Assembly (NCBI GenBank): GCA_002633115.1
Contig: NWBJ01000060.1
Location: 1-33,539, forward strand
Reading direction: 5' to 3'
From: Muribaculaceae bacterium Zag1
Lineage (GTDB): Bacteria > Bacteroidota > Bacteroidia > Bacteroidales > Muribaculaceae
DNA: 33,539 nucleotides
Part shown: piece after piece, positions 17,701-33,539 of the stretch
How the letters are laid out: every line of letters begins with the position of its first letter
Numbering within the stretch: the stretch's first letter is position 1
Made by a program: the position numbers and the translations under genes
The notes under the pieces: model-generated
Database searches by the model: none
What the model was told of the DNA's origin: nothing
Seen by the model: the letters and a program-made list of their open reading frames with translations, nothing else

Positions 17701-19235
17701 TGGTGCCTATGGTAATCGCCTCAGGTCCGGGTTCGGAGAGCCGCCAGTCGATAGGCACGGGGGTATTCTTCGGCATGATCTTCGCCGTGACGCTCGGTGT
17801 GCTGTTAGTGCCCTTCTTCTTCGTTCTGATATACTCGGGGTTGGCAAAACTGCGCACCGTGCATCTCTCCAAGCTGAGAATCATCATTGGCATTGCTATC
17901 CTATCCTCAACCATGTCGAGCTGCAAACTCGGCCATCGCTATACTCGCCCCGACCTGGACATGCCTCAGCAATATCTCGAGCAAAATTACGACTCTTTGG
18001 CTCTGGCAAATATGCAGTGGTGGCAAGTATACCAAGACACCCTGCTCCAGCGATTGATTTCCACAGCTTTGGAGTACAACAAAAGCCTGCTGTCATCTGA
18101 GGCGCGACTGCGCGAAATGGCGGCTCGCAAGCGTCTGGCCACTGCCAACCTGCTGCCGCAGATCACGGGCGATGTCTACGACCAAAAGGAGGTGCTAAAT
18201 TACGGTGGCGACAACAAGAAGCCCGACCCAGAGCTGGGCATTAAATTCACTGCCAAGTGGGAACTCGACATTTGGGGCAACAAACGCTGGTCGCGCGAGG
18301 GCAGCATTGCCGACTGGCTGGCGGCCAAGGAGACGCGCAATGCCCTACAGCTGAGCATCATCTGCGATGTGGCCAAGGCTTATTTCGAGCTTGTGGCCCT
18401 CGACCACGAGTTGTCGATGGTTGAGCATACGCTCGAGGCCCGGCGCGAGGGCGTCAGGCTCGCCAAACTGCGCTACGAGGGCGGATTGACTTCAGAGACA
18501 TCGTATCTGCAGGCCCAGGTGGAATATGCCCGCACGGCAACGCACGTGCCTGTGATTGAGCGTAATATCGAGCTTAAGCAAAACGAAATAGCGTATCTCA
18601 CTGGCTCATATCCCACGGCCATCGAGCGCGCCAAATCGATGGGCAGCGAGCAGTGGAACGACACCCTGGCAGTCGGTCTGTCATCCCAACTGCTTGAGCG
18701 GCGCCCCGACATACGCGCTGCCGAGCAACAACTGATTTCGGCCAATGCAGCAGTCGGGGTAGCTTATACCAACCGCTTTCCCACCCTTACGCTCACAGCC
18801 CAGGGCGGCGTGGAGAGCGAACACCTGAGCGATCTGCTCAAATCGCCGCAGCACTTCCTGCAGGGTGCCTTGTCGGGACCAGTTTTCGACTTTGGCCGCA
18901 AGCAGGCGAGCTACCGAGCCGCACAGGCGGCTTATGAGCGCGCCGTATATGACTATGAGAATGTTGTGATTTCGGCATTTCGCGAGGTTAGCAATGCCAT
19001 CACGCAGTTCAACAAGAGCAAGGAGATTTACCAGTCGATGGCTCTGCTGCGCGATGCCACTCGCGCCACCACGGTCAAGGCGCAGCTGCAATACATCAAC
19101 GGCGTGATTTCCTACCTCGACCTGCTCGACGCTCAGCGTAGCTATTTTGACGCCCAGGTCAGCGCCATCAATGCCGAGCGCGATCGTCGCATCGCCCTCG
19201 CCAACCTCTACAAAGCCCTCGGCGGCTCCTGGTAG
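14763..19235 (+). CDS. Fusion of RND multidrug efflux pump (AcrB-like) and TolC/NodT-like outer-membrane efflux lipoprotein
   Basis: One uninterrupted 1490-aa frame. Residues 1 to about 1030 are a complete HAE1-type RND pump: N-terminal 'FFIDRPVFSAVLSILIVILG', TM4 proton-relay pair Asp408-Asp409 ('AIGIVVDDAIVVVENVE'), and the conserved TM10 Lys935 ('MGMAAKNAILIVEFA'). It ends after the last membrane helix ('FFFVLIYSGLAKL'). With almost no linker there follows a lipoprotein signal ('RIIIGIAILSSTMSSC', Cys1054) and a full-length outer-membrane factor (1054-1490) with its repeated helical domain and 'RRPDIRAAEQQLISANA' motif. A GTG codon at 17859 (codon 1033) would give a normal 21-residue signal peptide, so the channel may be made by internal initiation, or released from the polyprotein by signal peptidase II. 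A lost stop codon or sequencing error is the simpler alternative. It exports drugs, bile salts or similar with the upstream adaptor. Confidence 0.9.
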   Translation: MKMTFFIDRPVFSAVLSILIVILGTVGLILLPIDQYPQITPPVVKISASYPGASALTVSQAVATPIEQELNGTPGMLYMESSSSNSGAYTATVTFDIGSSPELSAVEIQNRVKLAEARLPAEVVKNGLSVEKQASSQLLTICLTSSDPKFDEIYLSNFATLNVLDLLRRIPDVGRVANIGSRYYAMQIWVQPDKLANLGITVGDLQKALQDQNRESAAGTLGQQPVKGLDVTIPITTKGRLSSVTQFEDIVVRANPDGSIIRLRDVARISLEAQSYNTESGINGENAAVLAVYMLPGANAMQVAERVKNAMKEISKTFPEGMSYDIPFDMTTYISESIHEVYKTLFEALFLVILVVFLSLQTWRATLIPLVAVPISLIGTFGFMLIFGFSLNILTLLGLVLAIGIVVDDAIVVVENVERVMEQDHCSPYQATKKAMQSLTSPIIATTLVLAAVFVPVSFLPGITGQLYRQFTITIVVSVILSSIVALTLSPVMCSLILKPQEHTKKKNIVFRRINHWLSVGNYHFINLIKLSIAHKKIVLIGFAVMLGVIVLINALMPKSFLPIEDQGYFTVELELPEGATLERTRVVTDRAVAYLLENPAVDYVQSVAGSSSQVGSSQARSTLTVILKPWQDRSGETIDDVMAVVRRDLAEHPECKVYLSRPPVIPGLGTSGGFEMQLEARGDASLEDLIAATDTIMEYARRSGKVTGLSTSLQADIPQLYFDVDRDKVKFAGVPLADVFSTMKAFTGSVYINDFNMFNRIYRVYLQAEAPYREHRENINLFYVRGASGTMIPLTSLGTTSYTTGPGNIKRFNMFTSAVIRGEAARGYSSGQAMSEIEEIAREKLPSSIAVEWSGLSFQEKKQGGQTFIVLALVFLFVFLFLAALYESWTVPLSVLLSLPVAALGAYLGAWVCGRENDVYFQIGLVMLMGMAAKNAILIVEFAKDSVNEGMRPLDAAIEASRLRFRPIVMTSLAFILGMVPMVIASGPGSESRQSIGTGVFFGMIFAVTLGVLLVPFFFVLIYSGLAKLRTVHLSKLRIIIGIAILSSTMSSCKLGHRYTRPDLDMPQQYLEQNYDSLALANMQWWQVYQDTLLQRLISTALEYNKSLLSSEARLREMAARKRLATANLLPQITGDVYDQKEVLNYGGDNKKPDPELGIKFTAKWELDIWGNKRWSREGSIADWLAAKETRNALQLSIICDVAKAYFELVALDHELSMVEHTLEARREGVRLAKLRYEGGLTSETSYLQAQVEYARTATHVPVIERNIELKQNEIAYLTGSYPTAIERAKSMGSEQWNDTLAVGLSSQLLERRPDIRAAEQQLISANAAVGVAYTNRFPTLTLTAQGGVESEHLSDLLKSPQHFLQGALSGPVFDFGRKQASYRAAQAAYERAVYDYENVVISAFREVSNAITQFNKSKEIYQSMALLRDATRATTVKAQLQYINGVISYLDLLDAQRSYFDAQVSAINAERDRRIALANLYKALGGSW

Positions 19236-20848: not shown

Positions 20849-22240
20849 ATGAAACCATATAGACCTACCGCAGAGGGCTGGCCCATGCTCAAGCCCGCGC
20901 TGCTCATTGGCGCTCTGATGTGCGCGCCGGCACTGATGGCCGAAGGGCCCGGCACCGACAATCTCCCAGACCCGATCGAGACTATGTTGCAGCTAGAAAA
21001 CGGCCTCAATACCGTGTGGATGCTGCTGGCAGCAATGCTGGTATTCTTCATGCAACCGGGCTTCGCCCTGGTCGAGGCCGGATTCACTCGCACCAAAAAC
21101 ACCGCCAATATCCTGATGAAGAATTTCGTGGACTTCACCCTTGGCGCGTTGCTGTTTTGGATCATAGGATTCGGATTTATGTTTGGCGCCGGAGGATTCC
21201 TGGGGATGCCGCATCTGTGCGACTATTCGTTCTGGTCGGGCGATGGCGGACTGCCTTCTGCCGGATTCTTGGTATTTCAGACTGTGTTCTGCGCTACTGC
21301 TGCCACTATCGTGTCGGGAGCTATGGCCGAGCGCACCAAATTTTCGATGTATCTGGTCTATACCATAGCCATCTCGGTGCTTGTCTATCCCATCTCGGGC
21401 CACTGGACCTGGGGCGGGGGCTGGCTGATGGATGATTCTGAGGGCTCGTTTATGATGCGCACCTTTGGCACGGCGTTCCATGACTTCGCTGGTTCTACCG
21501 TGGTGCACTCAGTCGGCGGCTGGATTGCCCTGGTAGGCGCAGCCATCCTGGGGCCGCGCATCGGCAAGTATGCCAAGGACGGTAAGTCGAAGGCTATCCC
21601 TGGCCACAACTTGACGATTGCCGCCTTGGGCGTGTTCATCCTCTGGTTTGGATGGTTCGGCTTCAACCCCGGTTCGCAACTCGCTGCCTCTACACCTGAT
21701 GATCAAGTGGCTATCTCCACCGTGTTCCTTACTACTAATCTCGCGGCTTGCGCCGGTGGCTTTATGGCATTGGCTGTGAGCTGGATCAAATATGGCAAGC
21801 CATCCCTCTCGCTTACCCTCAACGGCATCTTGGCCGGCTTGGTGGGCATCACCGCCGGGTGCGACGCTGTGGACGCATGGGCGGCTGTGTGCATCGGCGC
21901 CATCTGCGGATTTGTGATGATATTCTCGGTCGAATTCATCGACCGCGTGCTCAAGGTCGACGACCCCGTGGGCGCCAGCTCAGTGCATGGCGTGTGCGGC
22001 TTCCTCGGTACTGTGCTTACGGGCCTGTTTGCCACTGAGGGTGGCCTCTTCCTCGGCGGAGGCTGGGGCATGCTGTGGGCCCAGCTGTTTGGAGCCGTTG
22101 TGGTCGGCGCGTGGGCCGCTCTGATGGGATTCATCATCTTCACGGGCCTCGACAAGATCCACGGCCTGAGGGTTGAGCATCGAATCGAGGAGGAAGGCCT
22201 CGACATCTACGAGCACGGCGAAAGCGCCTACAACATCTAA
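20849..22240 (+). CDS. amt: Ammonium transporter
   Basis: 463 aa. A signal-like N-terminus ends 'ALMAEG' (a Met at residue 13 is an alternative start), followed by eleven membrane segments. Family marks include 'VFFMQPGFALVEAGFTR', the Amt signature around 'DFAGSTVVHSVGGWIALVGA' with the first pore His, and the second pore His in 'GASSVHGVCGFLGTVLTG'. It conducts ammonium into the cell in the inner membrane and is gated by the PII protein encoded 52 bases upstream. The C-terminal tail ('GLDIYEHGESAYNI') is the region that contacts PII. Its last 51 bases, including the stop, are repeated exactly at 31718-31768, at the far end of the defence island. Confidence 0.95.
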   Translation: MKPYRPTAEGWPMLKPALLIGALMCAPALMAEGPGTDNLPDPIETMLQLENGLNTVWMLLAAMLVFFMQPGFALVEAGFTRTKNTANILMKNFVDFTLGALLFWIIGFGFMFGAGGFLGMPHLCDYSFWSGDGGLPSAGFLVFQTVFCATAATIVSGAMAERTKFSMYLVYTIAISVLVYPISGHWTWGGGWLMDDSEGSFMMRTFGTAFHDFAGSTVVHSVGGWIALVGAAILGPRIGKYAKDGKSKAIPGHNLTIAALGVFILWFGWFGFNPGSQLAASTPDDQVAISTVFLTTNLAACAGGFMALAVSWIKYGKPSLSLTLNGILAGLVGITAGCDAVDAWAAVCIGAICGFVMIFSVEFIDRVLKVDDPVGASSVHGVCGFLGTVLTGLFATEGGLFLGGGWGMLWAQLFGAVVVGAWAALMGFIIFTGLDKIHGLRVEHRIEEEGLDIYEHGESAYNI

Positions 22241-22313
22241 CCCCATACCCCGTTTGGAAACCTCGCGAGCCATCCCGCGCCTCTCCCCGGCGCGCCGATG
22301 GCTCGCTAAATTT
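22190..22313 (+). repeat. Left copy of 124-bp direct repeat (amt 3' end plus terminator)
   Basis: Aligned with 31718-31841: the first 54 bases (amt codons through the stop and CCC) are identical. The next 70 differ by two substitutions and two single-base indels. Both copies are in the same orientation, 9528 bp apart. This copy is part of the intact amt gene, so it is the original site. Confidence 0.93.
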
Positions 22314-22314
22314 T
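22265..22314 (+). terminator. Terminator of the omp-PII-amt operon
   Basis: Arms GCGAGCCATC (22265-22274) and GATGGCTCGC (22297-22306) pair perfectly, and an inner CGCGC/GCGCG stem adds stability. TAAATTTTAC follows. The same hairpin is present in the right-hand repeat at 31793-31834. Confidence 0.8.
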
Positions 22315-22415
22315 ACTTTATACTTTCTTATTTACAATTTTTTTACAATTATCGACCAAAATCATTTACAAGTCAATATTTGCAAATGAATTGTTAATAT
22401 TTGGTCAACATTTTC

Positions 22416-22473
22416 TTGAATTTCTCAAAAACGTGTAAATTGGCCCATTTGAATTTCTCAAAAACGTGTAAAT
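22416..22473. repeat. Two exact 25-bp direct repeats beside the left island boundary
   Basis: The 25-base unit, beginning TTGAATTTCTC and ending ACGTGTAAAT, is at 22416-22440 and again at 22449-22473, a 33-base period. It lies between the amt terminator and the stop of the nuclease gene (22498). Function unknown; a recombination site, a protein-binding site or local slippage are all possible. No copy was seen near the right boundary. The rest of 22315-22497 is AT-rich without a gene. Confidence 0.8.
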
Positions 22474-22497
22474 GTTAATGAAATGCAAATTCAAAGT

Positions 22498-23889
22498 CTA
22501 CTTAAAAGGCCGAGAAGAAGTGGCTCGCAATTCTTCAATGGTAGTAAAGTAGGGCACCGTGTGAGCCTTGCCACCCTTCAGGGCGCAACGACTAAGGTCT
22601 AAATCTCTTATATCTATAGGATGCTTACTCTTGAGCTTAAACATGAGATAACTTCCCCCAGAGGGATTAAATCCTTTAGCCTTTAAATCTTCAACGGTAG
22701 CTGACTTGGGTGGATATCCACTCAATTCATACATCTTACGATTTTTCTGAGCGTCATGGAGCAGCAAATACTTTGCCTTATCAAATCCGTACACTAATTC
22801 AATGGAGCCTGGCTTAAACCCTGAAGGCACATAATAGACGAGCTGATCTAAAATGACTTGCTCAGTAGCTTTGTCCTTTATGTACCCCACCAATACCAAA
22901 TCTTCTCGCTTGGCTGCTTCCATCGGAATATAGCTAAGACCGCGTTGGGGTATTGAATCTTCGATTTGTTGTAATCGAGAGCGGTCAACAAGCACCGAGG
23001 TCAAATGTTCACGCAGTAGCCAACCCTCCTTTTCAGGATGGCCTACATCGGGTAATAGGGGAAAGGCACCGATATTGACCGACTCTATGCTCTTATAGAA
23101 ATAGCGTTCCTTAATCTTGGCATCAGTGGCTCGGCCAGGAAATAGGATGAAACCACCTATGATTTCTTTTGCGGCATGGTCTTCACGTCCGCTCCCATAA
23201 TAAATAGCATCACGATAGCGGTGCATTTGGTTTATGGCATCGCTGGGAGGATAATCAGCATAGTCGGCATCAGGATTATCCATATCACCAGCATTGCGGT
23301 CATCAAGCACTCGATATTTCGCATCGTAGAGATAGGTAAGGGTGAATCCATCAGGCTTAATGATATTAAGCACAATATCAGGTCGTTGCTCTGTGGTGGC
23401 AGTATGCACATCACCCGTAAATCGATTATAGGTATGCTGATATCTTAGTTCTATCCTATCGCCACTCTCTGGGTAATAGGTTACAATGTGCTCCATCTGA
23501 TTATCTCGAAATGGATCAAAACCATCGGGGCGCTCTTGGGTGATATGTTCGTCATCAAATTCCAACCCTAAGATTTCGGCTATCATGCGCTTCATCTTGA
23601 TGAAACACCAAAGCTCATAGAGTTCCCAAATCGGTCGAACACCAATGTCGGTAGCTCCAGAATAGAGAGACAGACCGGAATTTAATATATGCCAAGCGCG
23701 ATATACTTGAGCGTAACCTGTACGCTTTTGCAGTACATTGCTCTCTTGCCTAAAGCCCTCAAATCGACCTACACGGCGAAATAGACTGTTACGTGCCAAC
23801 CTCTTTAAGCTCTCGCTATATCCCGTGAGTTCGGCCTTTTCAGCCGCTGACAATTGGTCTTCATAGGCTTGACATAATTCGCCGAGCAC
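22498..23889 (-). CDS. DUF2357/McrC-like PD-(D/E)XK restriction nuclease, C-terminal part (separated from its N-terminal part by an in-frame TAG)
   Basis: 463 aa if counted from the first possible start (a GTG at 23889), but coding signal continues upstream: the 27 codons back to the TAG at 23971-23973 read '...STIDTRENRFVKF...', a conserved block of the family, in the same frame as the upstream gene. The catalytic core is present: 'RPDIVL' (Asp171 in this numbering) and 'YLYDAKYR' (Asp189-x-Lys191), a PD-(D/E)XK nuclease site. A later block ('SVNIGAFPLLP', 'IPQRGLSYIP', 'YLLLHDAQ') is shared with the remnant at 31840-32457. In McrBC/LlaJI-like systems such a protein is the DNA-cleaving partner of the AAA+ subunit. 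Without readthrough this half probably is not translated efficiently, so the nuclease may be inactive. Confidence 0.82.
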   Translation of the reverse strand: MLGELCQAYEDQLSAAEKAELTGYSESLKRLARNSLFRRVGRFEGFRQESNVLQKRTGYAQVYRAWHILNSGLSLYSGATDIGVRPIWELYELWCFIKMKRMIAEILGLEFDDEHITQERPDGFDPFRDNQMEHIVTYYPESGDRIELRYQHTYNRFTGDVHTATTEQRPDIVLNIIKPDGFTLTYLYDAKYRVLDDRNAGDMDNPDADYADYPPSDAINQMHRYRDAIYYGSGREDHAAKEIIGGFILFPGRATDAKIKERYFYKSIESVNIGAFPLLPDVGHPEKEGWLLREHLTSVLVDRSRLQQIEDSIPQRGLSYIPMEAAKREDLVLVGYIKDKATEQVILDQLVYYVPSGFKPGSIELVYGFDKAKYLLLHDAQKNRKMYELSGYPPKSATVEDLKAKGFNPSGGSYLMFKLKSKHPIDIRDLDLSRCALKGGKAHTVPYFTTIEELRATSSRPFK

Positions 23890-23970
23890 CTTGTTTATTC
23901 TGCCTGAAATACTTTGGAGAGTAAACTTAACGAACCTATTCTCACGAGTATCGATAGTGGACTCCTTTAC

Positions 23971-23973
23971 CTA
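23971..23973 (-). other. In-frame amber stop splitting the nuclease gene
   Basis: The upstream part ends '...SMRFRN' then TAG, and the same frame continues 'VKESTIDTRENRFVKF' without another stop into the catalytic part. Removing this one codon gives a 764-codon frame, about what I would expect for a complete DUF2357 nuclease. It could be a nonsense mutation, a suppressed or readthrough amber codon, or a sequence error. Confidence 0.8.
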
Positions 23974-24792
23974 GTTACGAAAACGCATCGACTCCAATCT
24001 GTCATCATAGGCAGCCTCATTCAATCGCTCTGCCATTAGCGGACTCCAATGCTTAATCGCATCGGCCCGATGCTGATATACATGACGTTCAACTCTGAAA
24101 TGAGGCTTATTAACGATGTAGGTAATGGCTTGAATATAATCTGCAACAATTGACTTGAATATGGAAAGCCATATCAAATCATTGCTTTTGCCTCCGCGTT
24201 GGAGACCCTGATAGGTTTTGGTAAGGAATTTGAATACTAAGTTCTCGTATTCCTCATTTACTTTATTGAGGATGTGGAGATAATCACGCTTAGTATCCAA
24301 TTTTGGAGATACTACTTGGAAATCCAAACAATCGGTGCGTTCTGGTTCGCCTATGGGTTTGTAACGGTAGCGGAGTGAAAATTTACCCGGCTCATTGAGG
24401 AAATCTACAGAGCCGCTCAAAAAAGCCACTCCGTTGCCACCGCTGAAGCAACTAAATCGCTCTACTACTTCTTTTGATGGATGCCCTATTTGAGGCTCAC
24501 CTTCGATTCCTTGAAATCGAAGCGAAAAAGTATAAACGCAAGTCTCAAACATCACAGGCCATTCTGTTGGCCAGACCGTCTGGGAGCCCTCCCCAACTTG
24601 GACCAATTGTGTGCTTTGGTTGGGGAGGTCTATTAAGGATAGACTGCCTGAATGCGTAGAGGAATAATCTGAATATCTGGTTGCTTCCTCTCCTATACGA
24701 CTCTTGAATCTACGCCAAGCTCCAAAGACAGAGTTGGCAGCGATTTTTATCTCTACCAACCCATCCTCACTTATATAGCGCAGTACATCCAT
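23971..24792 (-). CDS. DUF2357/McrC-like restriction protein, N-terminal part
   Basis: 273 aa from an ATG 12 bases after the McrB-like gene. It is a beta-rich N-terminal domain followed by a helical region ('TKRDYLHILNKVNEEYENLV'), the DUF2357 arrangement that in McrC-like proteins docks onto the AAA+ ring. It has no catalytic residues; those lie in the C-terminal part after the in-frame TAG. If translation stops here, the cell makes a non-cutting McrC-like adaptor that might still bind the McrB-like protein. That is speculation. It is third in the methyltransferase - AAA+ - nuclease operon. Confidence 0.78.
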   Translation of the reverse strand: MDVLRYISEDGLVEIKIAANSVFGAWRRFKSRIGEEATRYSDYSSTHSGSLSLIDLPNQSTQLVQVGEGSQTVWPTEWPVMFETCVYTFSLRFQGIEGEPQIGHPSKEVVERFSCFSGGNGVAFLSGSVDFLNEPGKFSLRYRYKPIGEPERTDCLDFQVVSPKLDTKRDYLHILNKVNEEYENLVFKFLTKTYQGLQRGGKSNDLIWLSIFKSIVADYIQAITYIVNKPHFRVERHVYQHRADAIKHWSPLMAERLNEAAYDDRLESMRFRN

Positions 24793-24804
24793 CCCTTATG
24801 GAGA

Positions 24805-26730
24805 TTAGGGCCAGAAACTGGTGAAATTTTTCTGAGCCAAGTAATGTTGCATCTCTTGTATTTTAGCGTTGCTCTTTGGATAGTTTCCTCGAGTAAAACT
24901 CTCCAAATTACGCAGAGTGTCGTTAAGTTCCTCTCCTCCATCAACCCTTGGTAGCACTTTCATTAGCATTATGTCATCAAAAGCTTGATTGAGCAGGGCA
25001 TTGCCATCTACCTCAGGATTCTCCTCACGTAGAGCGGCAAAGTATATCACCAACTCATTCTGCACTCGATAAGCGATGCGGAATGGTGAGCCTTTGAGAT
25101 GCTGATCTAAGGATTTGAGCATAGCTACGGCATCGACTTGCATCAACTGCTTATCCTCGTCATTCATTTGCGAATGGGCATCACGAGCACTCGCGTATTT
25201 GGGTAAGAAATACTTGGCTTCAATGGGCTCATCGCGGTATTTGAGAGTATCTTCTCTTTCTGGGTCGAGCATAGCGTCAAAATCCACCTCATTCATCTCA
25301 ATGGTCATGGCTCGATCAATCACCTTACGAGAGAATTGACATGTGGTATCATCCATATTCACTGTCCCCACCACAACCAGATTTGGTGGTAAGGTAAGAC
25401 CGCTTTGAGAAAGCTTTGCCCATACCTCCATATCAGCCTCGGGAACTGTGATATATTTATTATGATGCTCGTTAAAGTTCAGATTGTAATAAGCGCATTT
25501 GAAACTATTGAGATTGGCTTGTATCACCTCAGGTTTGACTATCGGCTCACTTACAATTATTCCCTCTTTGAGTTTTCTGCTCTCCAACACGGATAAAAAC
25601 TCAGCGAAATAATGTTCCACAGGAGCTAAGTTCATCTCATCAAGACAAACAAAGAATGGAACCTTCGGATTCATCCATGCCTTAATCAAGAAATTAAGGA
25701 ATGGTGTAACCATATACTTGCTGCTAAGAGTTGAATAATATCCCAGAATCTCTGTTGAGTCATGCCAATTAGGCTTTACCTCGATTATGCAATAGTTGCC
25801 TGGCGATACTTCGTCTTCATCTTGCAATTCTTGGGGACAGCTTACAAATGCCATCTCTTTCACGATACGACTTTTGCCCGTACCACTGATACCTGCCAAA
25901 AGCAAGAAGGGTTTGGTACGCATTGCTGTAAGAAGGTCCTCAAACTCAGTTCCTCTCACCTTATCCATAGCTAAAATTCCAACTGACATGTTATCAGATT
26001 CCTTGGCCTCTGCACTCATTGGGAAAAGGGTATAAAAGTCGGCCTTTACCAGTTGACATGGCTGTCCAGACAAATATGATATGGAATATTGGCTCAGAGC
26101 TTCTTTAGCTTCAGTTTCCTTTGGTAGCAAGGTATCTACCAATTCCTGAGTGTAATCATTTAATAAGGCCTCCTTCAAACCGTTGTATAAGGCATCAACG
26201 GAAAAATCATTGTCTGCTATCGCCAAATTATTAGCACGATTAAGCCAGAGAGCCAAAGCCATTCGAGACTCCACATGAGGAATGTAATGAAGCACGTTTT
26301 TGTACATGCCAACATTTCTAATCAACATCTCAGATTGAATGTTGAATAGGGGATATTGGCCGCGCTGGGGATATTCTACAAGTTGGCCACCATTATTGTG
26401 TGAAACTTTAACTTGGCCAACCGAATAAAAGTTACTTCCACAATTGTAGTCCCCATTATGTTGTTTCAAAGGGAGGTAGAACTGGGGCGTGTAGAGCATC
26501 TCCGAATCACAAACTCTACAGAATTTGCCTACGCAATGACTGAAGTCAAATTTATCTTCTATATCTCTGACATTGCAATTACGACCCTCAGTCCTGTAAA
26601 ACATATCGAGGGCAAAGAAGTAACGCAATGCACTCACCACTTGCGTGGCTCCTTGCATTGTAGGGTCTTCATGGATTTCAGACAGCTTTTTATAGGCCTC
26701 CAAAACCATTGGTTTGGATAGATATGGCAT
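24805..26730 (-). CDS. McrB-like AAA+ NTPase of a restriction system
   Basis: 641 aa. The N-terminal 250 residues contain a possible metal-binding Cys cluster (Cys66, Cys71, Cys74 in 'HCVGKFCRVC') and are probably the DNA-recognition or specificity region. The AAA+ core follows: Walker A 'GISGTGKS' (280-287), Walker B 'FFVCLDEMNLAP' (359-370, Asp364-Glu365), the McrB-style 'GTVNMDD' (455-461) and 'KVIDRAMTIEM' with a possible Arg finger. The 'LDEMNLAP' and 'GTxNxxD' pair is diagnostic of the McrB branch of AAA+ motors, which translocate on DNA with GTP or ATP. It starts 2 bases after the methyltransferase stop and is followed 12 bases later by the McrC-like gene, so it is the motor of a three-gene system. 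Confidence 0.88.
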   Translation of the reverse strand: MPYLSKPMVLEAYKKLSEIHEDPTMQGATQVVSALRYFFALDMFYRTEGRNCNVRDIEDKFDFSHCVGKFCRVCDSEMLYTPQFYLPLKQHNGDYNCGSNFYSVGQVKVSHNNGGQLVEYPQRGQYPLFNIQSEMLIRNVGMYKNVLHYIPHVESRMALALWLNRANNLAIADNDFSVDALYNGLKEALLNDYTQELVDTLLPKETEAKEALSQYSISYLSGQPCQLVKADFYTLFPMSAEAKESDNMSVGILAMDKVRGTEFEDLLTAMRTKPFLLLAGISGTGKSRIVKEMAFVSCPQELQDEDEVSPGNYCIIEVKPNWHDSTEILGYYSTLSSKYMVTPFLNFLIKAWMNPKVPFFVCLDEMNLAPVEHYFAEFLSVLESRKLKEGIIVSEPIVKPEVIQANLNSFKCAYYNLNFNEHHNKYITVPEADMEVWAKLSQSGLTLPPNLVVVGTVNMDDTTCQFSRKVIDRAMTIEMNEVDFDAMLDPEREDTLKYRDEPIEAKYFLPKYASARDAHSQMNDEDKQLMQVDAVAMLKSLDQHLKGSPFRIAYRVQNELVIYFAALREENPEVDGNALLNQAFDDIMLMKVLPRVDGGEELNDTLRNLESFTRGNYPKSNAKIQEMQHYLAQKNFTSFWP

Positions 26731-26732
26731 AT

Positions 26733-27929
26733 TTATCGATTTAAAGTATCTATTAATGTTTTAGCGATTACCCAAGCTAGTACTGGGGGTACCGCATTTC
26801 CTATAACCTTATATCTCGACTGCAAGGGTATACTTGAGAAGCTATAATCATCTGGGAAGGATTGAATTCTTGCGATTTCACGCACCGAATATCTGCGATT
26901 CTCTACTGGATGAGTAATTCCACAATTCTCGGGTTGCGCTGAGGCTGTAATGGTACCATTTATCTCACCATAGGCAAATCTTCTGAAGAATTTAGGAGCA
27001 TGATATTTTTTCGGATCATTATAAATTTTCAGAAATCTATCCGACAATTTCTCAGGAGGTACATCCTTCCAGGATTTACCTTCAAACGCAATTGGAGGCA
27101 GTTGGGACAAAGAAGCACAATTCTCAAACCACTTTATTGCCTCAGCCCCATGAGCACATGGGCCGATATTTTCTATCATATTTTGGGTGGTCTGGCTATA
27201 TGCCCATACCTCATTATCAGGCAAATCTTTGATTCCCTGCAATATACTCCCTATCATCAAAGGAATATAATTACCCATCTCTACCGAAGGAAGATTTAGA
27301 GCTCTTACCAAACCATCCATTTTATCGAAGTCGAAATACCCAAATTCTTCTTCTACTCCGACTATCAGATAACGATATCTATTTTGAGGCACCCCGTAAT
27401 TACTGGCACAGATTAAACGCGCAGAGACATTGTAGCCCAAAGCTTCCATTCTCCTTCTGATTTCATTAGGTACAGTCTCCCCATTGGGCATTTTTGAGGA
27501 CATAATACCTCTAACGTTCTCATATACAAATGCTTTAGGATGATACCCCTTGGCAATCTGGCCTTTGAGTATGCGTTCGCACTCCTCAAAAAGAGTTCCG
27601 CGACCGTTATGGTCATTTACGCCCTTGCGATTACCAGCATTAGAGAAAGGCTGGCATGGGAAACCTGCCAGTAAAATATCATACTCCGGGATATCTTTAA
27701 CATCCACAGTGCGAATGTCTTGCAGAAGACATTCATGGCCATCTTTTGTGAGAAGAGGATTAGAATTATAACATACAGCAGCATCCTTGTCAAAATCATT
27801 AGCAAAGACAGTCTGGGTATCTAATCGATCAAATTTTCGACCCATAAACTCAAAACCGCCTGAGAAGCCTAAATCTAGGCCTCCGCAATCAGAAAACAAC
27901 GATGCTATTCTATATGTCTTTTTATTCAT
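26733..27929 (-). CDS. C5-cytosine-specific DNA methyltransferase
   Basis: 398 aa from the ATG at 27929; the frame is open a little further, to a TTG at 27941, but the ATG gives the standard start ('MNKKTYRIASLFSDCGGLDL'). It has motif I 'SLFSDCGGLDLGF' for SAM binding, motif IV 'GFPCQPFSNAG' with catalytic Cys92, motif VI 'YENVR' (Glu137-Asn138-Val139), motif VIII 'QNRYR' (182-186) and motif X near the C-terminus ('RYKVIGNAVPPVLAWVIA'). It transfers a methyl group to carbon 5 of cytosine within an unknown recognition sequence set by residues about 200-310. It is the first gene of the operon with the McrB-like and McrC-like genes, so it probably marks self DNA for that system. Confidence 0.93.
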   Translation of the reverse strand: MNKKTYRIASLFSDCGGLDLGFSGGFEFMGRKFDRLDTQTVFANDFDKDAAVCYNSNPLLTKDGHECLLQDIRTVDVKDIPEYDILLAGFPCQPFSNAGNRKGVNDHNGRGTLFEECERILKGQIAKGYHPKAFVYENVRGIMSSKMPNGETVPNEIRRRMEALGYNVSARLICASNYGVPQNRYRYLIVGVEEEFGYFDFDKMDGLVRALNLPSVEMGNYIPLMIGSILQGIKDLPDNEVWAYSQTTQNMIENIGPCAHGAEAIKWFENCASLSQLPPIAFEGKSWKDVPPEKLSDRFLKIYNDPKKYHAPKFFRRFAYGEINGTITASAQPENCGITHPVENRRYSVREIARIQSFPDDYSFSSIPLQSRYKVIGNAVPPVLAWVIAKTLIDTLNR

Positions 27930-27974
27930 TCTAATTTGCAATCATACACACCCAAGAATATGGGTTTTCGTTTG

Positions 27975-27982
27975 CAAAGGTA
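27975..27982 (-). promoter_or_regulatory. -7 box (TACCTTTG) of the methyltransferase operon
   Basis: On the minus strand TACCTTTG matches TAnnTTTG and would give a leader of about 40 bases. No clear -33 TTTG is found at 17-23 bases. A second perfect -7 box, TAACTTTG, lies at 28053-28046, next to the hairpin at 28055-28090, so two start sites are possible. Confidence 0.5.
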
Positions 27983-28054
27983 ACACTTTTTGACGATACT
28001 GGGAGAATAGACCCTTGGAAAAATCCAAAAATTCTCTTGTCACCGCAAAGTTAA

Positions 28055-28090
28055 AATAGGGATTGGGCAATTTCATTGCCCATCCCTATT
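28055..28090 (-). terminator. Long hairpin between two minus-strand operons
   Basis: Arms 28055-28070 and 28076-28090 pair over 15 bp with a single bulged base and a 5-base loop. On the minus strand it lies about 110 bases after the small gene at 28204 and is followed by TTAAC, a weak T-run. It may terminate the ATPase/small-gene transcript. Since it abuts the TAACTTTG box it may also be an operator for the methyltransferase operon. Confidence 0.5.
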
Positions 28091-28203
28091 AAATTATTCA
28101 AAAGAAAAAATTATACAGGACGCAGACAACCCATGATAGTAGTAAGAAAAGCAGTCAGAAAACCGATGAAAGCGGTCAGAAAACTCAATATCTAAAAGGA
28201 CAA

Positions 28204-28422
28204 CTATGCATAGGGCTTCCTGTCGTGCAGATGGCGGAAGCCTTCAATCTTTTCTTCTGTCAGCTCTCCTGTCGCCCAAAGGCGATCGACTTCGGCTTGT
28301 GCGAGTTTGGCAAAATGGGAGGCTATGGCTTGCTTTAGCTCGCTGAGCATCTCATCAGATTTGACACAGGCCATCATCTCCAGAATCTCTATTTGCACTG
28401 GGGTCAGGTCTTGGATATTCAT
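28204..28422 (-). CDS. Small acidic helical protein, antitoxin-like
   Basis: 72 aa, predicted all-helical ('IQDLTPVQIEILEMMACVKS', then 'ELTEEKIEGFRHLHDRKPYA'). The small size and the form of the C-terminal tail recall Bacteroidales small proteins found beside toxin genes, but I do not recognise a named family. It lies 38 bases after the AAA_14/DUF4143 ATPase gene on the same strand, so the two are probably co-transcribed. No toxin gene follows it; the downstream 260 bases hold only a hairpin and the next promoter. Function unknown. Confidence 0.6.
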   Translation of the reverse strand: MNIQDLTPVQIEILEMMACVKSDEMLSELKQAIASHFAKLAQAEVDRLWATGELTEEKIEGFRHLHDRKPYA

Positions 28423-28460
28423 ATTCTATTGTTTATGTTGCCATTGAAATGTAAAACCAA

Positions 28461-29663
28461 TCAGTACAGTAGGCCAAACATCCAGAGTGGGATGCGACCA
28501 CGGCTGCCGATTTCGGTATCGTCAACAGCCAGATAGCTATTGGGGATATTTGCTATTTGATTAAAATCCTTGCCCTTGCCGCCAACCTCAAATAGCCACT
28601 TCCCATCTACCATGAAATCGCCACTGCCCGGGACTGTCACCGCATGACCTTGCTCGAGTTGGTTGAGAAAGAACGTCTCTCGTATAGTCCCCATATCGGG
28701 GCTAGGGGTGAGAGCATACATAAGGTTAGGGTTGTCCAAGAAAATTTTCTCTGGGCGCGTCAGATTCTTGTAGCTTTTAGGCTTGGTAGAATACAGGCGC
28801 AAAATGTCAGCCCGATCCAGAAGATTGATCAGCTGGAGCCCTTGATCGTAAGTGGTCTCTATTTGTTGGTATACTTTGGATAATTTAGGTACTGTAGGCA
28901 CATTCTCAGCAATCACCATTAGCAAAGCTTTGGCCTTCTGCCGGGTAGCAAAAGACACATCTGCGACTGTTGGAAGGTCAACATCCAAAACCGTGCGCAA
29001 CACGTCTTGCAGCCTCGTTAAATATTGGTTTCCCTCTTGTCTATAGAAAGGATAATAACCGTGTTGGAGATAATTATGGAAATGGGGTAGAATCTTTGTA
29101 CGCGCAGCAATTTCCATAGCCATTGGCACATGCCTATCAAGCAGCTCATTGAGTGTAAGAGTTGGTACCTCCAGTCCTTCAAATGCCAAGTATTCTCGGA
29201 ATGACAATCCAGGCATGTAATACAAACTCTGCCTTCTTGATAAATCCCCTATCGAATTATCTATCTTGAGCATGCTGCTCCCAGTATATACAATATTGAG
29301 CGTATCGTATGTGTCGTAGATGTTTTTTATAATTTGGTTCCACCGAGGATAGGTATGGACCTCATCCAGAAATAGATGAGTGATGCCTTGCTGGTCGGCC
29401 CATTGAGCCAGGTCAAGCAAGCTGTTGGTTTGGAACCAAAAATCATCTAGTGATGCATAAATCACCTTAGTAGAGTCGGGAAAGAATTCTTTAATGTGTT
29501 GGAGCAACATAGTAGTTTTTCCAACACCTCTGGCTCCTTTGATACCTATCAACCGAGAAGTCCAGTTAATATTCTGATATAAGAATCTTTTGAAGTCGGT
29601 ATTGATAGGGACTAACTTTCTCAGATAACGATCCAAGAGGGGTTGTGGGGTGGCATTATCCAT
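28461..29663 (-). CDS. AAA_14 + DUF4143 ATPase
   Basis: 400 aa. Walker A is 'GARGVGKTT' near residue 45 and Walker B 'HLFLDEVH' near residue 98, followed by a sensor stretch 'LNIVYTGSSML'. The C-terminal half is the DUF4143 domain, whose end ('VDGKWLFEVGGKGKDFNQI') resembles the PD-(D/E)XK fold found in this family. These proteins are abundant and multicopy in gut Bacteroidales. They are predicted ATPases of the STAND/Orc-Cdc6-like group with an unproven role, often placed in defence or mobile regions. Its promoter region carries two tandem inverted repeats. It probably forms an operon with the small gene downstream. Confidence 0.85.
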   Translation of the reverse strand: MDNATPQPLLDRYLRKLVPINTDFKRFLYQNINWTSRLIGIKGARGVGKTTMLLQHIKEFFPDSTKVIYASLDDFWFQTNSLLDLAQWADQQGITHLFLDEVHTYPRWNQIIKNIYDTYDTLNIVYTGSSMLKIDNSIGDLSRRQSLYYMPGLSFREYLAFEGLEVPTLTLNELLDRHVPMAMEIAARTKILPHFHNYLQHGYYPFYRQEGNQYLTRLQDVLRTVLDVDLPTVADVSFATRQKAKALLMVIAENVPTVPKLSKVYQQIETTYDQGLQLINLLDRADILRLYSTKPKSYKNLTRPEKIFLDNPNLMYALTPSPDMGTIRETFFLNQLEQGHAVTVPGSGDFMVDGKWLFEVGGKGKDFNQIANIPNSYLAVDDTEIGSRGRIPLWMFGLLY

Positions 29664-29688
29664 ATTTTTCCGCGTTTAGTAATCTCTG

Positions 29689-29696
29689 CAAAGTTA
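29689..29696 (-). promoter_or_regulatory. -7 box (TAACTTTG) of the AAA_14/DUF4143 gene
   Basis: Exact match to TAnnTTTG on the minus strand, 26 bases before the start codon at 29663. The -33 position falls inside the inverted repeat at 29698-29725 and does not match TTTG well, so an activator or alternative recognition is possible. Confidence 0.55.
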
Positions 29697-29697
29697 C

Positions 29698-29757
29698 AAA
29701 AAGTTCTTTTTGAAAAGAACTTTTTGTGGGTAAAAGTTCCTTTTGAAAAGAACTTTT
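29698..29757. repeat. Two tandem inverted repeats upstream of the ATPase gene
   Basis: Unit 1 (29698-29725) has perfect 13-bp arms AAAAAGTTCTTTT / AAAAGAACTTTTT with a 2-base loop. Unit 2 (29732-29757) is a near copy with one changed base, 34 bases further on. They overlap or lie just upstream of the promoter, as expected for binding sites of a dimeric regulator, possibly the ATPase system itself. The surrounding stretch 29664-30036 otherwise holds a broken HEPN gene and a plus-strand promoter. Confidence 0.75.
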
Positions 29758-29794
29758 TTACAGAGTTAGTTAGAAATTACCTATTCCAGGAGCA

Positions 29795-30031
29795 TTGATT
29801 ATTACCAGTAGTTCCTCTAACAGTATAATAAACCGGTTGTATTACGCATGTTTCTATGCTGCGATAGCTTTACTTTTAAGCCGAGGGATAGAAACTAAAA
29901 GCCATGAAGGAGTACAACGAATGTTAGGACTGCATTTTATTAAACCTGGATTAATTGGTAAATTTGTAAAAATCAAGCGAGATTTGGTAATACAAATAAA
30001 AAGCATTACCTTTGTGGGGATAAAAATTTGA
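29795..30031 (+). pseudogene. Remnant of a HEPN-domain protein gene
   Basis: The frame from about 29810 reads 'NSIINRLYYACFYAAIALLL' then 'GIETKSHEGVQRMLGLHFIK', a clear middle section of a HEPN domain (helical RNase/nucleotidyltransferase-partner fold). The N-terminal helix is missing (no ATG; only a TTG start and a nearby upstream stop). After 'FIKPGLI' the sequence turns into unrelated AT-rich bases that hold the next gene's promoter. Only about 50 codons of an expected 120-130 remain. It is probably a decayed MNT/HEPN-type toxin or its partner. Confidence 0.65.
29983..30014 (+). promoter_or_regulatory. Consensus promoter of the AAA/PDDEXK_9 gene
   Basis: TTTG (29983-29986), 20 bases, then TACCTTTG (30007-30014). 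A start near 30020 puts the ATG at 30037 as the first usable start codon, with a very short leader. Confidence 0.8.
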
Positions 30032-30036
30032 TAGGC

Positions 30037-31608
30037 ATGGGACTTTATGTTAACATAGGAAATCGTAATTTTCAAAGGACACGAAATGGCGAGTATGTCG
30101 ACAAGTCAAGACTTATTGCGGAAATCAATGATACACTTGACACCAATAAGTGCATGACTTGCGTTACTCGCTGCCGTAGGTTTGGAAAATCTATTGCTGC
30201 CGAGATGCTGTGCGCTTACTATGACAAGTCCTGCGATTCGCGTGAGTTGTTCCATGGCCTTGAAATCGAGAAAGACCCATCGTTTGAGAAGCACCTTAAC
30301 AAGTATTCCGTCATATTCGTCAGCCTCACCACCTTTACCTCACTCTATAACCACGACCCTGAGATTGTGGCGAAAATGCAGCGTGATCTTATAGCAGACA
30401 TACATTCCGAACATCCTGACGTTGAATTAAATCCCAATGAGGATTTGATGGCATTTTTGTCTCGCATTGCGACTCAGAAAGGAGAAAGGTTTTTCATGAT
30501 CATCGACGAGTGGGATGCGATAATACGGGAATTCAAAGATAGCGAGAAGGTGATGGATGAGTATGTCAAATTCCTTCGCCGCCTCTTCAAGGATCCAATC
30601 ACCAGCCGCGTGTTCGTCGGGGCCTACATCACAGGCATCCTCCCCATCAAGAAATACAACACCCAGTCGGCCCTCAACAATTTCCGAGAGTACACGATGA
30701 TCCAGCCCGGAAAGCTCGCCAGTTACTTCGGCTTCACCAAGCAGGAGGTTGAAGCTTTGGGCAGCAAATACGGAGTCGACCCTGAGGATTTGGAGCAATG
30801 GTACGACGGCTACAGGATTGGGGTCGAGCCCTCGATGTTCAACCCCAATTCCGTGATGACTGCCATCGACAACGGCGTATGCGCCAACTATTGGAGCAGC
30901 ACTGGCGCCTACGACAACGTGGCCCGCTACATCCAGATGAACTTCGAGGGGCTTAAGGAGGACATCGTAAGGATGATAGCCGGGGAGGAATGCACGGTCA
31001 ACTACGTCCGCTTCAACAACGACCTTAAAGAGATAAAGAGCCGTGACGACGTGCTCACCATCCTCATCCACCTCGGCTACCTCTCCTACAACCCCGACAC
31101 TCGCAAATGCTACATCCCCAACCGCGAAGTGAGGGAGGAGATGGAGAGCGCCGTTTTGGCAACGAAGTGGAAGGAGTTGGTTAGCGCCATCAGTTCCTCG
31201 GAGGCGTTGCTGCGCGCCGTGCTCAACCGTGACGAAGCATCAGTAGCCTCAGGGGTGGAGAAGGTGCATCAGGATGTGGTAAGTATTCAGAAGTACAATG
31301 ATGAGGACAACCTGTCGCAGGTGGTGTACTTGGCCTTCTACTCTGCCATCAACGACTACATCATTCACCGAGAATACCAGTCGGGCAAGGGATTCGCGGA
31401 CTTGGCTTTCGTCCCCCGGAAGCATATTGACGCCCCAGCCCTCTTGATTGAACTGAAATACGACAAGAACGTAAAAACAGCCATTAATCAAATTAATGAG
31501 CGAAACTATCCGGACAAGCTGCGCGAATATGCCTCCAACATCATCCTGGTGGGCATAAACTACGATCCACACACCAAGACCCACACCTGCAAAATCGAAC
31601 AAGCATAA
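30037..31608 (+). CDS. AAA-ATPase_like / PDDEXK_9 nuclease-fold protein
   Basis: 523 aa from the ATG at 30037, chosen because the promoter's start point is about 17 bases upstream and family members begin 'MGLxVN'; an upstream TTG (30028) is less likely. The ATP-binding site is the family's variant P-loop 'CRRFGKS' (about 46-52) with Walker B 'FFMIIDEWDAI' (about 152-162). The C-terminal domain has a PD-(D/E)XK-type site: Asp in 'GFADLAFVPRK' and 'LLIELKYDK' (about 453-475). Such proteins are multicopy in gut Bacteroidales and Firmicutes; their function is unproven, with defence or mobile-element roles suspected. It is the last gene inside the two amt-end repeats. Confidence 0.87.
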   Translation: MGLYVNIGNRNFQRTRNGEYVDKSRLIAEINDTLDTNKCMTCVTRCRRFGKSIAAEMLCAYYDKSCDSRELFHGLEIEKDPSFEKHLNKYSVIFVSLTTFTSLYNHDPEIVAKMQRDLIADIHSEHPDVELNPNEDLMAFLSRIATQKGERFFMIIDEWDAIIREFKDSEKVMDEYVKFLRRLFKDPITSRVFVGAYITGILPIKKYNTQSALNNFREYTMIQPGKLASYFGFTKQEVEALGSKYGVDPEDLEQWYDGYRIGVEPSMFNPNSVMTAIDNGVCANYWSSTGAYDNVARYIQMNFEGLKEDIVRMIAGEECTVNYVRFNNDLKEIKSRDDVLTILIHLGYLSYNPDTRKCYIPNREVREEMESAVLATKWKELVSAISSSEALLRAVLNRDEASVASGVEKVHQDVVSIQKYNDEDNLSQVVYLAFYSAINDYIIHREYQSGKGFADLAFVPRKHIDAPALLIELKYDKNVKTAINQINERNYPDKLREYASNIILVGINYDPHTKTHTCKIEQA

Positions 31609-31717
31609 GAGTCGTTCTTATGAAATAATTTATTGGACTCCTAAGTTACAATTTCATTTTTAGGAACTCTCGGGGATGGACGTGATGGATGCCAGCGTAG
31701 AAACCGAGCGAGGAGGA

Positions 31718-31841
31718 GAGGAAGGCCTCGACATCTACGAGCACGGCGAAAGCGCCTACAACATCTAACCCTATACCCCCGTTTGGAAACCTGCGAGCCA
31801 TCCCGCGCCCCTCCCCGGCGCGCCGATGGCTCGCTAAATTT
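31718..31841 (+). repeat. Right copy of 124-bp direct repeat (orphan amt 3' end plus terminator)
   Basis: It repeats 22190-22313 with four differences, all after the amt stop codon. The reading frame of amt stays open leftward for 17 further codons ('MDVMDASVETERGG' follows a TAG), but that stretch does not match the real amt sequence, so only the end of the gene is here. The stop codon of the nuclease remnant on the minus strand (31842-31840) overlaps its right edge. The hairpin at 31793-31834 is retained and can terminate both strands. Nothing else is visible in 31609-31717. Confidence 0.93.
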
Positions 31842-32457
31842 ATAAGGGGATAGTGGTAAAGAAGGGTTTGGGGGTAGCTTTGCCACGGTGAACGACCTCA
31901 TCCCAATCGATGTGGGACCAAAGAGGGATTTCTGTAGTATCAAATTCGTAAACCAGATATTTCTTTTCTGGATCTTTATTGCCTTCAAAACCGTAATCCT
32001 CCTTCATCTTCCTTTTTGTCTTGTAGTTACCAGAATTAGGAATTATACGGAATAATTCTCTTCTCGGGCCATTATGAAGCAACAAATATTCTGGATGGTC
32101 GGGGTGAGGACCATGCATGTCAATAGCACCTTCTGTACCTCCTGTGCGCACATAGCAGAAACCTCTTGCTTTAAAAGTCTCGAATAGTTGTTCTTTTGCA
32201 TAGACCACCAGCAATACCGCCGAGGTCTTTGTCTCAGAATACTCCAAGCCGCGCTGCGGGATGGTTTCCAGCAAGGTATCGATGCTTGATTTGCCTATTA
32301 TGCGGGCCAGGAAGCAGCGCAAGAAGCCGTCTTTGGCTCCATCTCGGGCAGGGCGCAAGGGGAAAGCGCCGATATTAACCTTGTCGATCGAGCGCATGTA
32401 ATTCTTTGAATCTACCCTGTGGCTATATTCAGAAAAAATTTCACGATTTGAGGAAAA
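31840..32457 (-). pseudogene. C-terminal remnant of a second DUF2357/McrC-like nuclease
   Basis: The frame is open from 32457, before any start codon, reading 'EYSHRVDSKNYMRSIDKVNI' and on; the first ATG is only at 32397. It aligns with the end of the nuclease at 22498-23889: 'KVNIGAFPLRP' / 'SVNIGAFPLLP', 'IPQRGLEYSE' / 'IPQRGLSYIP', 'YLLLHNG' / 'YLLLHDA', 'PFFTTI' / 'PYFTTI'. The two are clearly diverged, so it is not a recent duplicate. The N-terminal domain and the PD-(D/E)XK active site are missing, so it cannot cut DNA. It faces the duplicated amt terminator exactly as the intact locus faces the original one. Confidence 0.8.
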
Positions 32458-32604
32458 TTAATGAGGGAATGGTGGTCAGAAAGGTGGTCAGAAAACACAG
32501 AATGAGGGAGAGAAAGTGGGGGAACAACGTAGGCTTTCTTAGCAGGTAATGAGAAATCCCATAATTTCCTCCCATCAAAAATTTATGGGAAACTTTACTT
32601 TTTA

Positions 32605-32636
32605 TTTGGTTGTTTCAAATAAAGATAGTACTTTTG
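32605..32636 (+). promoter_or_regulatory. Consensus promoter of the small-protein/GNAT pair
   Basis: TTTG (32605-32608), 20 bases, then TACTTTTG (32629-32636), a full match to the Bacteroidetes consensus. The start point is near 32643, about 20 bases before the ATG at 32663. The stretch 32458-32604 upstream has no gene; it holds tandem GGTCAGAAA motifs (32472-32495) and an imperfect inverted repeat around 32557-32592. Confidence 0.8.
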
Positions 32637-32662
32637 CATATAACATATAAAAATGTCCCATT

Positions 32663-32821
32663 ATGTTAGGCTATAACTACCCGCGAGAGCCTCTTAAGGG
32701 GGAGTTCGCAAAGAAAGTAAGAGAATTGGCCGCTAAAATGAATGTTGACAAACCCATACATTTCAATTCTAGCGCCAACTCTAAAAACAGAAAGAAAATA
32801 AACATTATCCTGGACTTCTGA
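32663..32821 (+). CDS. Small basic protein paired with a GNAT acetyltransferase (antitoxin-like)
   Basis: 52 aa: it starts 'MLGYNYPREPLKGEFAKKVR', has a Lys-rich middle and ends 'KKINIILDF'. It lies directly behind a consensus promoter and one base before the ATG of the GNAT gene, the layout of a toxin-antitoxin pair in which the first small gene is the antitoxin. I do not recognise a named family. It seems intact, whereas its partner is broken. An upstream ATG in another frame (32653) gives only 7 codons. Confidence 0.6.
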   Translation: MLGYNYPREPLKGEFAKKVRELAAKMNVDKPIHFNSSANSKNRKKINIILDF

Positions 32822-32822
32822 T

Positions 32823-33005
32823 ATGGATAACCTAATTATTAGACCTCTTCAAGATTTTGACTCGTTGAAGAGGTTTTCTTGTGGAGAGCCATCCATGGAT
32901 TCATTCATCCAAAAGAAATTATGGAAAAGCATTGCTTTTGGATATTGTAAAGGTTATGGATGCTTTTCTGAGCAAGATAAGTTAATTGCAAAGACACAGT
33001 GTTGA
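32823..33005 (+). pseudogene. Truncated GNAT-family acetyltransferase
   Basis: 60 codons: 'MDNLIIRPLQDFDSLKRFSC', then 'SMDSFIQKKLWKSIAFGYCK' and 'DKLIAKTQC' before a TGA. This is the N-terminal third of a GNAT protein of the kind found in acetyltransferase toxins (normally about 160-170 aa). The acetyl-CoA binding motif is absent because the sequence changes after 'LIAK'. It is co-directional with the 52-aa gene. It is probably non-functional. Confidence 0.65.
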
Positions 33006-33035
33006 TGTTCTTTCCGGTTTTGTAACCTCTTCCCC

Positions 33036-33060
33036 TTGCCATTTGCATCACAAATGGCAA
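33036..33060. other. Perfect 10-bp hairpin
   Basis: TTGCCATTTG / CAAATGGCAA with loop CATCA, 30 bases after the broken GNAT frame. There is no T-run on either side, so a terminator is doubtful. It may be a scar or an end of a lost element at the truncation point. Confidence 0.4.
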
Positions 33061-33090
33061 AATCGTGTGCCGGTCCTGGAGGTGTAAAGA

Positions 33091-33145
33091 GAGTATTAAT
33101 GAGCTATGGGTCTATTTTTTTGATAGTTACGCCCCATTAATACTC
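33091..33145 (-). terminator. Inverted repeat at the end of the zinc-ribbon gene
   Basis: Perfect 11-bp arms GAGTATTAATG (33091-33101) and CATTAATACTC (33135-33145) around a 33-base loop. The stop codon of the minus-strand gene (33139-33137) is inside one arm. It could act as a weak terminator for that gene, but the long loop and absence of a T-run leave this uncertain. Confidence 0.35.
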
Positions 33146-33539
33146 TACATAGCCCTTCCCGTAACATTGAGTGCACATTTCGTGGCGATGGCCAGTCGAA
33201 ACCTCTTGACGACATTGCTCACACCATTTCTTCTGCCCAGCCCCATAATGCAGACGGATTACTTGCCCTGTCCCACCGCAAACAGTACATTTGTGCTGAG
33301 TCTGAGAATGAGATGAAGAAGGGGTGGTAGGAGAAACCGGCATAGGTGTGGCTGCAGATCCACCAGTAGAAACTTCTCTTCTCAAAGAACATGTAGTTTG
33401 ACCTTGCGGAGGGGTGGCTTTCTTGTAGACATATACAGTACCTTCTGGAGTGCGAATATTCAACACTCCTTTCGAATCATAAAAAGTGAAAGAACATTCA
33501 TTGCCATAGTAGCATGCACAAAACGGAGCATTCCCGCCC
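33137..33539 (-). CDS. Zinc-ribbon (DnaJ-type CxxCxGxG) protein, 5' partial
   Basis: The frame runs off the right edge of the window; codons beyond the first internal GTG (33466) remain open and coding-like ('NAPFCACYYGNECSFTFYDS'), so the start is outside. At least 134 residues are present. A Ser/Thr/Pro-rich linker separates an N-terminal part from a C-terminal zinc ribbon with 'CTVCGGTGQV', 'CEQC' and 'CTQCYGKGYVEY', the two CxxCxGxG-type knuckles of DnaJ-like zinc centres. No J-domain is visible in this part. Function unknown; a zinc-stabilised binding module is likely. Confidence 0.72.
   Translation of the reverse strand, partial: GGNAPFCACYYGNECSFTFYDSKGVLNIRTPEGTVYVYKKATPPQGQTTCSLRREVSTGGSAATPMPVSPTTPSSSHSQTQHKCTVCGGTGQVIRLHYGAGQKKWCEQCRQEVSTGHRHEMCTQCYGKGYVEY

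Follow-up and report, generated by a model that had tools for sequence, protein, structure and literature searches.

How does the 3' end of a single gene come to stand on both sides of a cluster of defence-type genes? The locus that raises this question lies on contig NWBJ01000060.1 (positions 1–33,539, analysed over its whole length of 33,539 nucleotides and called the window here) of Muribaculaceae bacterium Zag1 (GCA_002633115.1), a draft genome of 4.46 Mb in 137 contigs, labelled G000. In it, the end of the ammonium transporter gene amt and the terminator behind it are repeated on the far side of a group of genes that includes mcrC-like and mcrB-like genes. Where a tyrosine recombinase has integrated a genomic island at the 3' end of a gene, that gene end is duplicated and stands at both borders, and gene-end duplication around AT-rich accessory genes is the usual appearance of integrase-made elements. 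Here, however, the duplication is probably the scar of a different event, in which two diverged, amt-linked defence islands were stacked by recombination at a microhomology, i.e., by homology-facilitated illegitimate recombination (HFIR).

The amt gene (20849..22240, forward strand) is intact and encodes a protein of 463 aa (PF00909, E=1.8e-123), which is 98% identical to that of the sister species, represented by genome G014, also a draft. Its final 51 bases, including the stop codon, and the terminator-like hairpin that follows make up the left copy of the repeat (22190..22313, forward strand). The right copy (31718..31841, forward strand) is a direct repeat of these 124 nt at a spacing of 9528, with an identity of 93% ungapped and 97% gapped, which is not attributable to chance; in the 137-contig draft, the segment has these two matches only. 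The copies are identical over the first 54 bases (51 coding bases and CCC) and fold the same hairpin (z-scores of -5.90 and -5.86). They differ at four sites (two substitutions and two single-base indels), each of which lies 3' of the stop codon. The right copy is a 51-bp relic without a gene of its own: in a protein search of its own genome, the similarity to amt covers just the last 36 residues and includes a stop. The repeat itself agrees with a preliminary description of the locus, which had reported the segment at both ends of the interval, the identical coding part and four differences lying past the stop. The same description had found no integrase or transposase inside, and the proteins scanned in the interval and to the right of it, as far as the contig end, likewise matched no such family.

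What did the locus look like before the repeat arose? Among 49 genomes of the genus (own included), the amt end is matched in two only, G000 and G014, and the same two are the only ones with a match to amt at E≤0.001. In G014, a single amt 3' end is followed by the same mcrC-mcrB-dcm island as in the window (island A), with 93.3% identity over 6 kb. In bins of 500 bases, the identity of the island to G014 is 90.7–98.4%, with one gapped bin at 81.5%, and it is 97.7% over the stretch containing an AAA_14 ATPase gene (28386–29797). The 10.5 kb of DNA upstream are 91% identical to G014. Since the island, at 93.3%, compares with 91% upstream, its presence at amt dates from the species split or it was exchanged since. 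Past the AAA_14 gene, G014 has a small open reading frame (ORF) and then an intact gene for a 415-aa DUF4143 ATPase.

It is within the counterpart of this last gene that the right copy begins. Of a DUF4143 ATPase gene, truncated here, the window has just the 3' tail (31636..31725, reverse strand), 91% identical to the tail of the intact G014 gene. This identity (90 bp) ends at GAGGAAGG (31718..31725, forward strand), an 8-mer common to the DUF4143 tail and to amt, and from there on the sequence is that of amt. The two genes are thus connected by one joint at a short microhomology of 8 bp, as expected of an HFIR product. When joints between the G014 contig and the window were simulated at random, an overlap of ≥8 bp arose in 0.0115% of 200,000 draws, which favours a joint at the microhomology.

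Another DUF4143 tail in the own genome (G000:C116:55603-55737, L137) adjoins what appears by eye to be an AAA-ATPase_like 3' end, as it does in the window (31608–31725). Elsewhere in G000 (L134, 2175–4027) there is a DUF4143 ATPase gene that is preceded, as judged by eye, by short tandem repeats and is missing at the equivalent G014 place (L133, 6704/6705); no target-site duplication was seen when the two places were compared.

The terminators bear on how the two amt ends are related. Three of the four differences between the left and right copies can be compared in G014 (the fourth falls in a G014 gap), and at all three the right copy agrees with G014 and the left copy does not; G014 itself differs from both copies at a 4-base gap and one base. 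Past the hairpin, the G014 sequence follows the left copy, which is what island A would lead one to expect. At four differences in 73 noncoding bases, the left and right copies are roughly as far apart as the amt genes of the two species (96/1392). Because the part of the right copy past the stop is G014-like and unlike the left, the copies probably did not originate by recent duplication of one sequence; more probably, two diverged amt ends were brought together.

What the second amt end brought with it is less well preserved. Directly behind the right copy, and facing amt like the left mcrC, is a 185-aa C-terminal relic of a second, different mcrC-like gene (31840..32397, reverse strand), whose position and orientation relative to the terminator match those of the left mcrC. 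It shares 62 of 194 residues (32%) with the G014 mcrC product and has no Pfam match of its own. In the 397 genomes of the family searched with it (the searches with amt and mcrB covered 361), its non-self matches at E≤1e-15 are 32–35% identical and come from four genomes (G049, G120, G185 and G251), all of which have an mcrB homologue within ~2 kb on the same contig. In 1-kb windows, the G+C content is ~0.50–0.60 up to amt, 0.38–0.46 from ~22.5 to 30 kb, 0.48–0.53 over 30–31.5 kb and ~0.41 to the right of the right copy, and since it drops again there, the AT-rich region extends past 31841. From the mcrC relic and its matches, it appears that a second island (island B), now decayed, once lay directly behind an amt terminator.

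These pieces suggest the following sequence of events. Island A, with its mcrC, mcrB, dcm and AAA_14 ATPase genes, would have been in place behind the intact amt, as it is in the sister species. Island B, of which a second mcrC tail and some fragments are left, would have arrived together with an amt 3' end and a terminator of its own, presumably from a position behind a complete amt gene. On one side, the exchange probably went by ordinary homologous recombination in flanks common to both, either in amt or past the contig end, whereas on the other it would have been illegitimate, the amt 3' end being joined within the DUF4143 ATPase gene at the 8-mer, with destruction of that gene. Which lineage may have acted as donor and which as recipient cannot be distinguished from the sequences. 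The preliminary description had proposed integrase-free recombination via shared amt ends between strains. This is supported in part: the diverged ends fit it, and the joint within the DUF4143 gene, at an 8-bp microhomology, gives it a concrete junction.

Several points weigh against this account of two stacked islands. G014 is the sole comparison genome carrying the amt-island locus, and its contig stops ~0.4 kb past the DUF4143 gene. The far end of island B lies past the window contig, and the homologous crossover is not seen. Further rearrangements, such as the AAA-ATPase_like gene present only in the window and a small ORF found elsewhere than in G014, mean that several events are needed. 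The simulated chance of an 8-bp overlap is a post hoc estimate, obtained once the 8-mer had been seen. Finally, and mildly, the 51 coding bases are identical in the left copy, the right copy and G014; as the amt genes of the two species last differ 58 bases before their end, this identity is uninformative on age, and it is mildly unexpected for a relic.

Could an integrase have made the locus after all? A site-specific element that inserted at the amt 3' end, restored the gene and has since lost its integrase would leave the original end as the right copy, and the repeat and G+C content, with a duplicated gene end around AT-rich accessory genes, do have the look of an integrative element. Nevertheless, what adjoins the right copy is the interior of a gene (intact in G014) and not the end of an element, the joint is an 8-bp microhomology, and the copies differ at four sites. 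No integrase was found among the scanned window proteins, G014's small extra ORFs lying outside that scan. Such an origin is very unlikely, and the lost integrase entertained in the preliminary description is argued against by the broken DUF4143 gene and the microhomology at the right copy. As for an empty site among relatives, the only one with this locus carries the island, with a single amt end. Phage and plasmid records gave no near match to 22190–33539, and in viral contigs a 45-base piece of the amt end had no exact match and mcrB had no confirmed relative. A crossover of the clean kind between amt ends, with a donor in which the DUF4143 tail was already joined to an amt end, would yield the identical product and fits the diverged terminators, but it shifts the illegitimate joint to an unseen donor, and we regard it as hardly probable.

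Tandem duplication in a single lineage, from the interior of the DUF4143 gene back to amt and with later replacement of the second island copy, is also unlikely. With microhomology at its ends it would produce an identical DUF4143-amt joint, and a convergent mcrC tail does follow both copies. However, a copy of island A should then follow the right end. Neither the repeat search of the window nor the DNA comparison with G014 found one there, and the mcrC relic in that place is only 32% identical at the amino acid level; moreover, the two terminators have diverged to the same degree as from those of another species. An assembly artefact at the 54 bases that the copies share exactly, which would make the order of the interval unreal, is a doubtful explanation as well. 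The genome is a 137-contig draft, and three contig ends share only ~24 bases, hinting at an assembler working with short words; if the order were wrong, island A may be a 9.5-kb circle closed at the amt end. On the other side, both copies differ and keep their own flanks, and G014 independently links amt to island A.

The processes assumed here have precedents. Turnover without an integrase, by recombination at flanking core genes, has been documented (PMC5635113), and the present finding is one more instance of such known turnover. As the process is described there, the two cases are alike in that accessory defence-type genes adjoin a core-type gene, that no gene for mobility was found and that there are signs of exchange between diverged lineages. 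The Zag1 locus differs in the microhomology joint that leaves a duplicated gene end, and status as a hotspot is not shown by its two genomes. HFIR, as set out in PMC3240628, gives products with one homologous and one illegitimate side, and the account given there concerns natural transformation and conjugation experiments in E. coli; here, the process is read from a natural scar of which the homologous side is unseen. The likeness to tyrosine-recombinase islands is limited to the duplicated gene end, since no integrase was found and the border is formed by a broken gene instead of an attachment site. The locus can be taken as a readable fossil of defence-island exchange without mobility genes, with the junction, the broken gene and two diverged gene ends still visible, and as a warning that an integrative element is not to be concluded from the duplication of a gene 3' end next to an island alone. 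Accessory defence islands in these bacteria might conceivably travel with the 3' end of the adjoining gene as a homology arm, by which rival islands could be stacked and later looped out between the perfect 54-bp repeats with no need of an integrase, an idea to which we give little credence at present.

Is the amt 3' end a general hotspot of integration, as had also been suggested? The family comparison lends this no support. At a strict E≤1e-120, amt is present in 10/361 family genomes, and in the eight besides G000 and G014 (8/8) neither a defence gene nor another amt end was seen next to it, within ~0.7 kb (G215) to ~16 kb (G117) of downstream DNA, which is short in G116 (~2.4 kb), G118 (~3.5 kb) and G215. 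By blastn against the window (E≤1e-4), seven of the eight have a single match to its amt end; G215 has no such match, and its amt end was located by a protein motif. For this check, ORFs were listed in seven of the eight (G215 left out), with Pfam run on one or two genes each and PADLOC not applied; the first short ORF of G116 and of G118 fell outside the Pfam scan. The genes scanned after amt encode adenylosuccinate lyase and a pseudouridine synthase (G227), enolase (G116), an MFS-like protein (below the Pfam cut-off) and an HlyD-like protein (G117), a Cthe_2159 carbohydrate-binding protein (G118), a DUF5063 and a cytidylyltransferase-like protein (G050) and an isocitrate/isopropylmalate dehydrogenase (G209), while the protein scanned in G084 had no Pfam family. 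G116 has both mcrB and amt, on different contigs. In a wider scan of contigs with amt, the best match among the matches listed was 81% identical, with no close relative among them, and these loci served for codon comparison only.

Two other candidate patterns were rejected. Bracketing repeats (≥30 bp, ≥85% identity, ≥2 kb apart) do not appear to be a general trait of these mcrBC islands. Of 24 mcrB places, 22 lie outside G000 and G014, and 20 were taken, leaving out two at contig starts; repeats were found in 2/20, several stretches being cut by contig ends. These were L181, with several short repeats, and L179, in another genus, where a 101-bp, 98% identical, intergenic AT-rich repeat (6685–6785 and 18381–18481) surrounds an mcrBC island and involves no gene end. 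Synonymous constraint at the amt 3' end was weak and was dropped because neighbouring windows overlap. The last 17 amt codons ranked 1/407 with eight family genomes, 2/407 with the three nearest and 6/407 with the at least 29 loci listed; after correction for residue degeneracy, the first two ranks became 11/407 and 9/407, and the third set was not redone.

Between amt and mcrC, where the genes converge with their 3' ends, is a 25-bp exact direct repeat (22416..22473, spacing 33) that is nearly kept in G014. The mcrC-like gene of island A (22498..24792, reverse strand; DUF2357 and PDDEXK_7 by Pfam) has an in-frame stop at 23971–23973, whereas in G014 it is a single open frame of 764 aa; Pfam finds DUF2357 and the PD-(D/E)XK nuclease in the intact G014 protein and in both window pieces. 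The adjacent mcrB-like gene (24805..26730, reverse strand) encodes an AAA+ protein of 641 aa, matched by the PADLOC model PDC-M26A (8.7e-48), with the Walker A motif GISGTGKS and an Nx(xx)D signature, NMDD following VVVGTV (by eye); its Pfam AAA support is weak (AAA_5, 18.5 bits against a cut-off of 22). PDB sequence searches with the McrB-like and McrC-like proteins gave no match, and a literature search for PDC-M26 found no paper. Homologues of mcrB at E≤1e-60 occur in 23/361 family genomes, G000 and G014 included. Next comes a DNA cytosine-5 methyltransferase gene, dcm (26733..27941, reverse strand; 402 aa; PF00145, 6.3e-59; TIGR00675). The mcrC-mcrB-dcm layout is also found in another family genome (G120, L179). 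In PMC11090510, McrBC systems associated with DNA methyltransferases are described as having a McrC-like protein with DUF2357 and PD-(D/E)XK, a McrB-like protein with NxxD and an adjacent cytosine methyltransferase, and island A shares all three. It differs in that the window mcrC is interrupted by a stop and the N-terminal part of the McrB-like protein has no assigned identity; restriction of modified or foreign DNA would be the predicted activity of such a system.

The AAA_14 ATPase gene (28461..29663, reverse strand) encodes 400 aa, is hit by PADLOC PDC-S01 models and has paired palindromic repeats in its promoter region (29698–29758). By eye, AAA_14/DUF4143 ATPase genes in the window and at L141, L143, L144 and L148 seem to have gene-specific palindromic or direct promoter repeats; a repeat finder flagged 3/11 upstream stretches (window, L148 and L149), and those of L142, L145 and L149 probably miss the true gene start. 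Beside its AAA_14 gene, G014 (L009, ~3308–3822) has ~0.5 kb extra, which by eye resembles a small toxin-antitoxin pair and is flanked by similar gene starts. The last gene before the junction, an AAA-ATPase_like and PDDEXK_9 gene of 526 aa (30028..31608, forward strand), is absent at the equivalent G014 place, and homologues 86–87% identical to it are found at other loci of G000 (C12) and G014 (C214). Six proteins of the region had no match in PHROGs.

Beyond the mcrC relic, a small ORF of 52 aa (32660..32821, forward strand), without a Pfam match, has 91% identity to DNA that in G014 adjoins the intact DUF4143 gene, and it is followed by what appears by eye to be the broken start of an acetyltransferase gene. 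At the very end of the contig (33516–33539), ~24 bases are common to the ends of contigs C102 and C7, so that a repeat probably follows.

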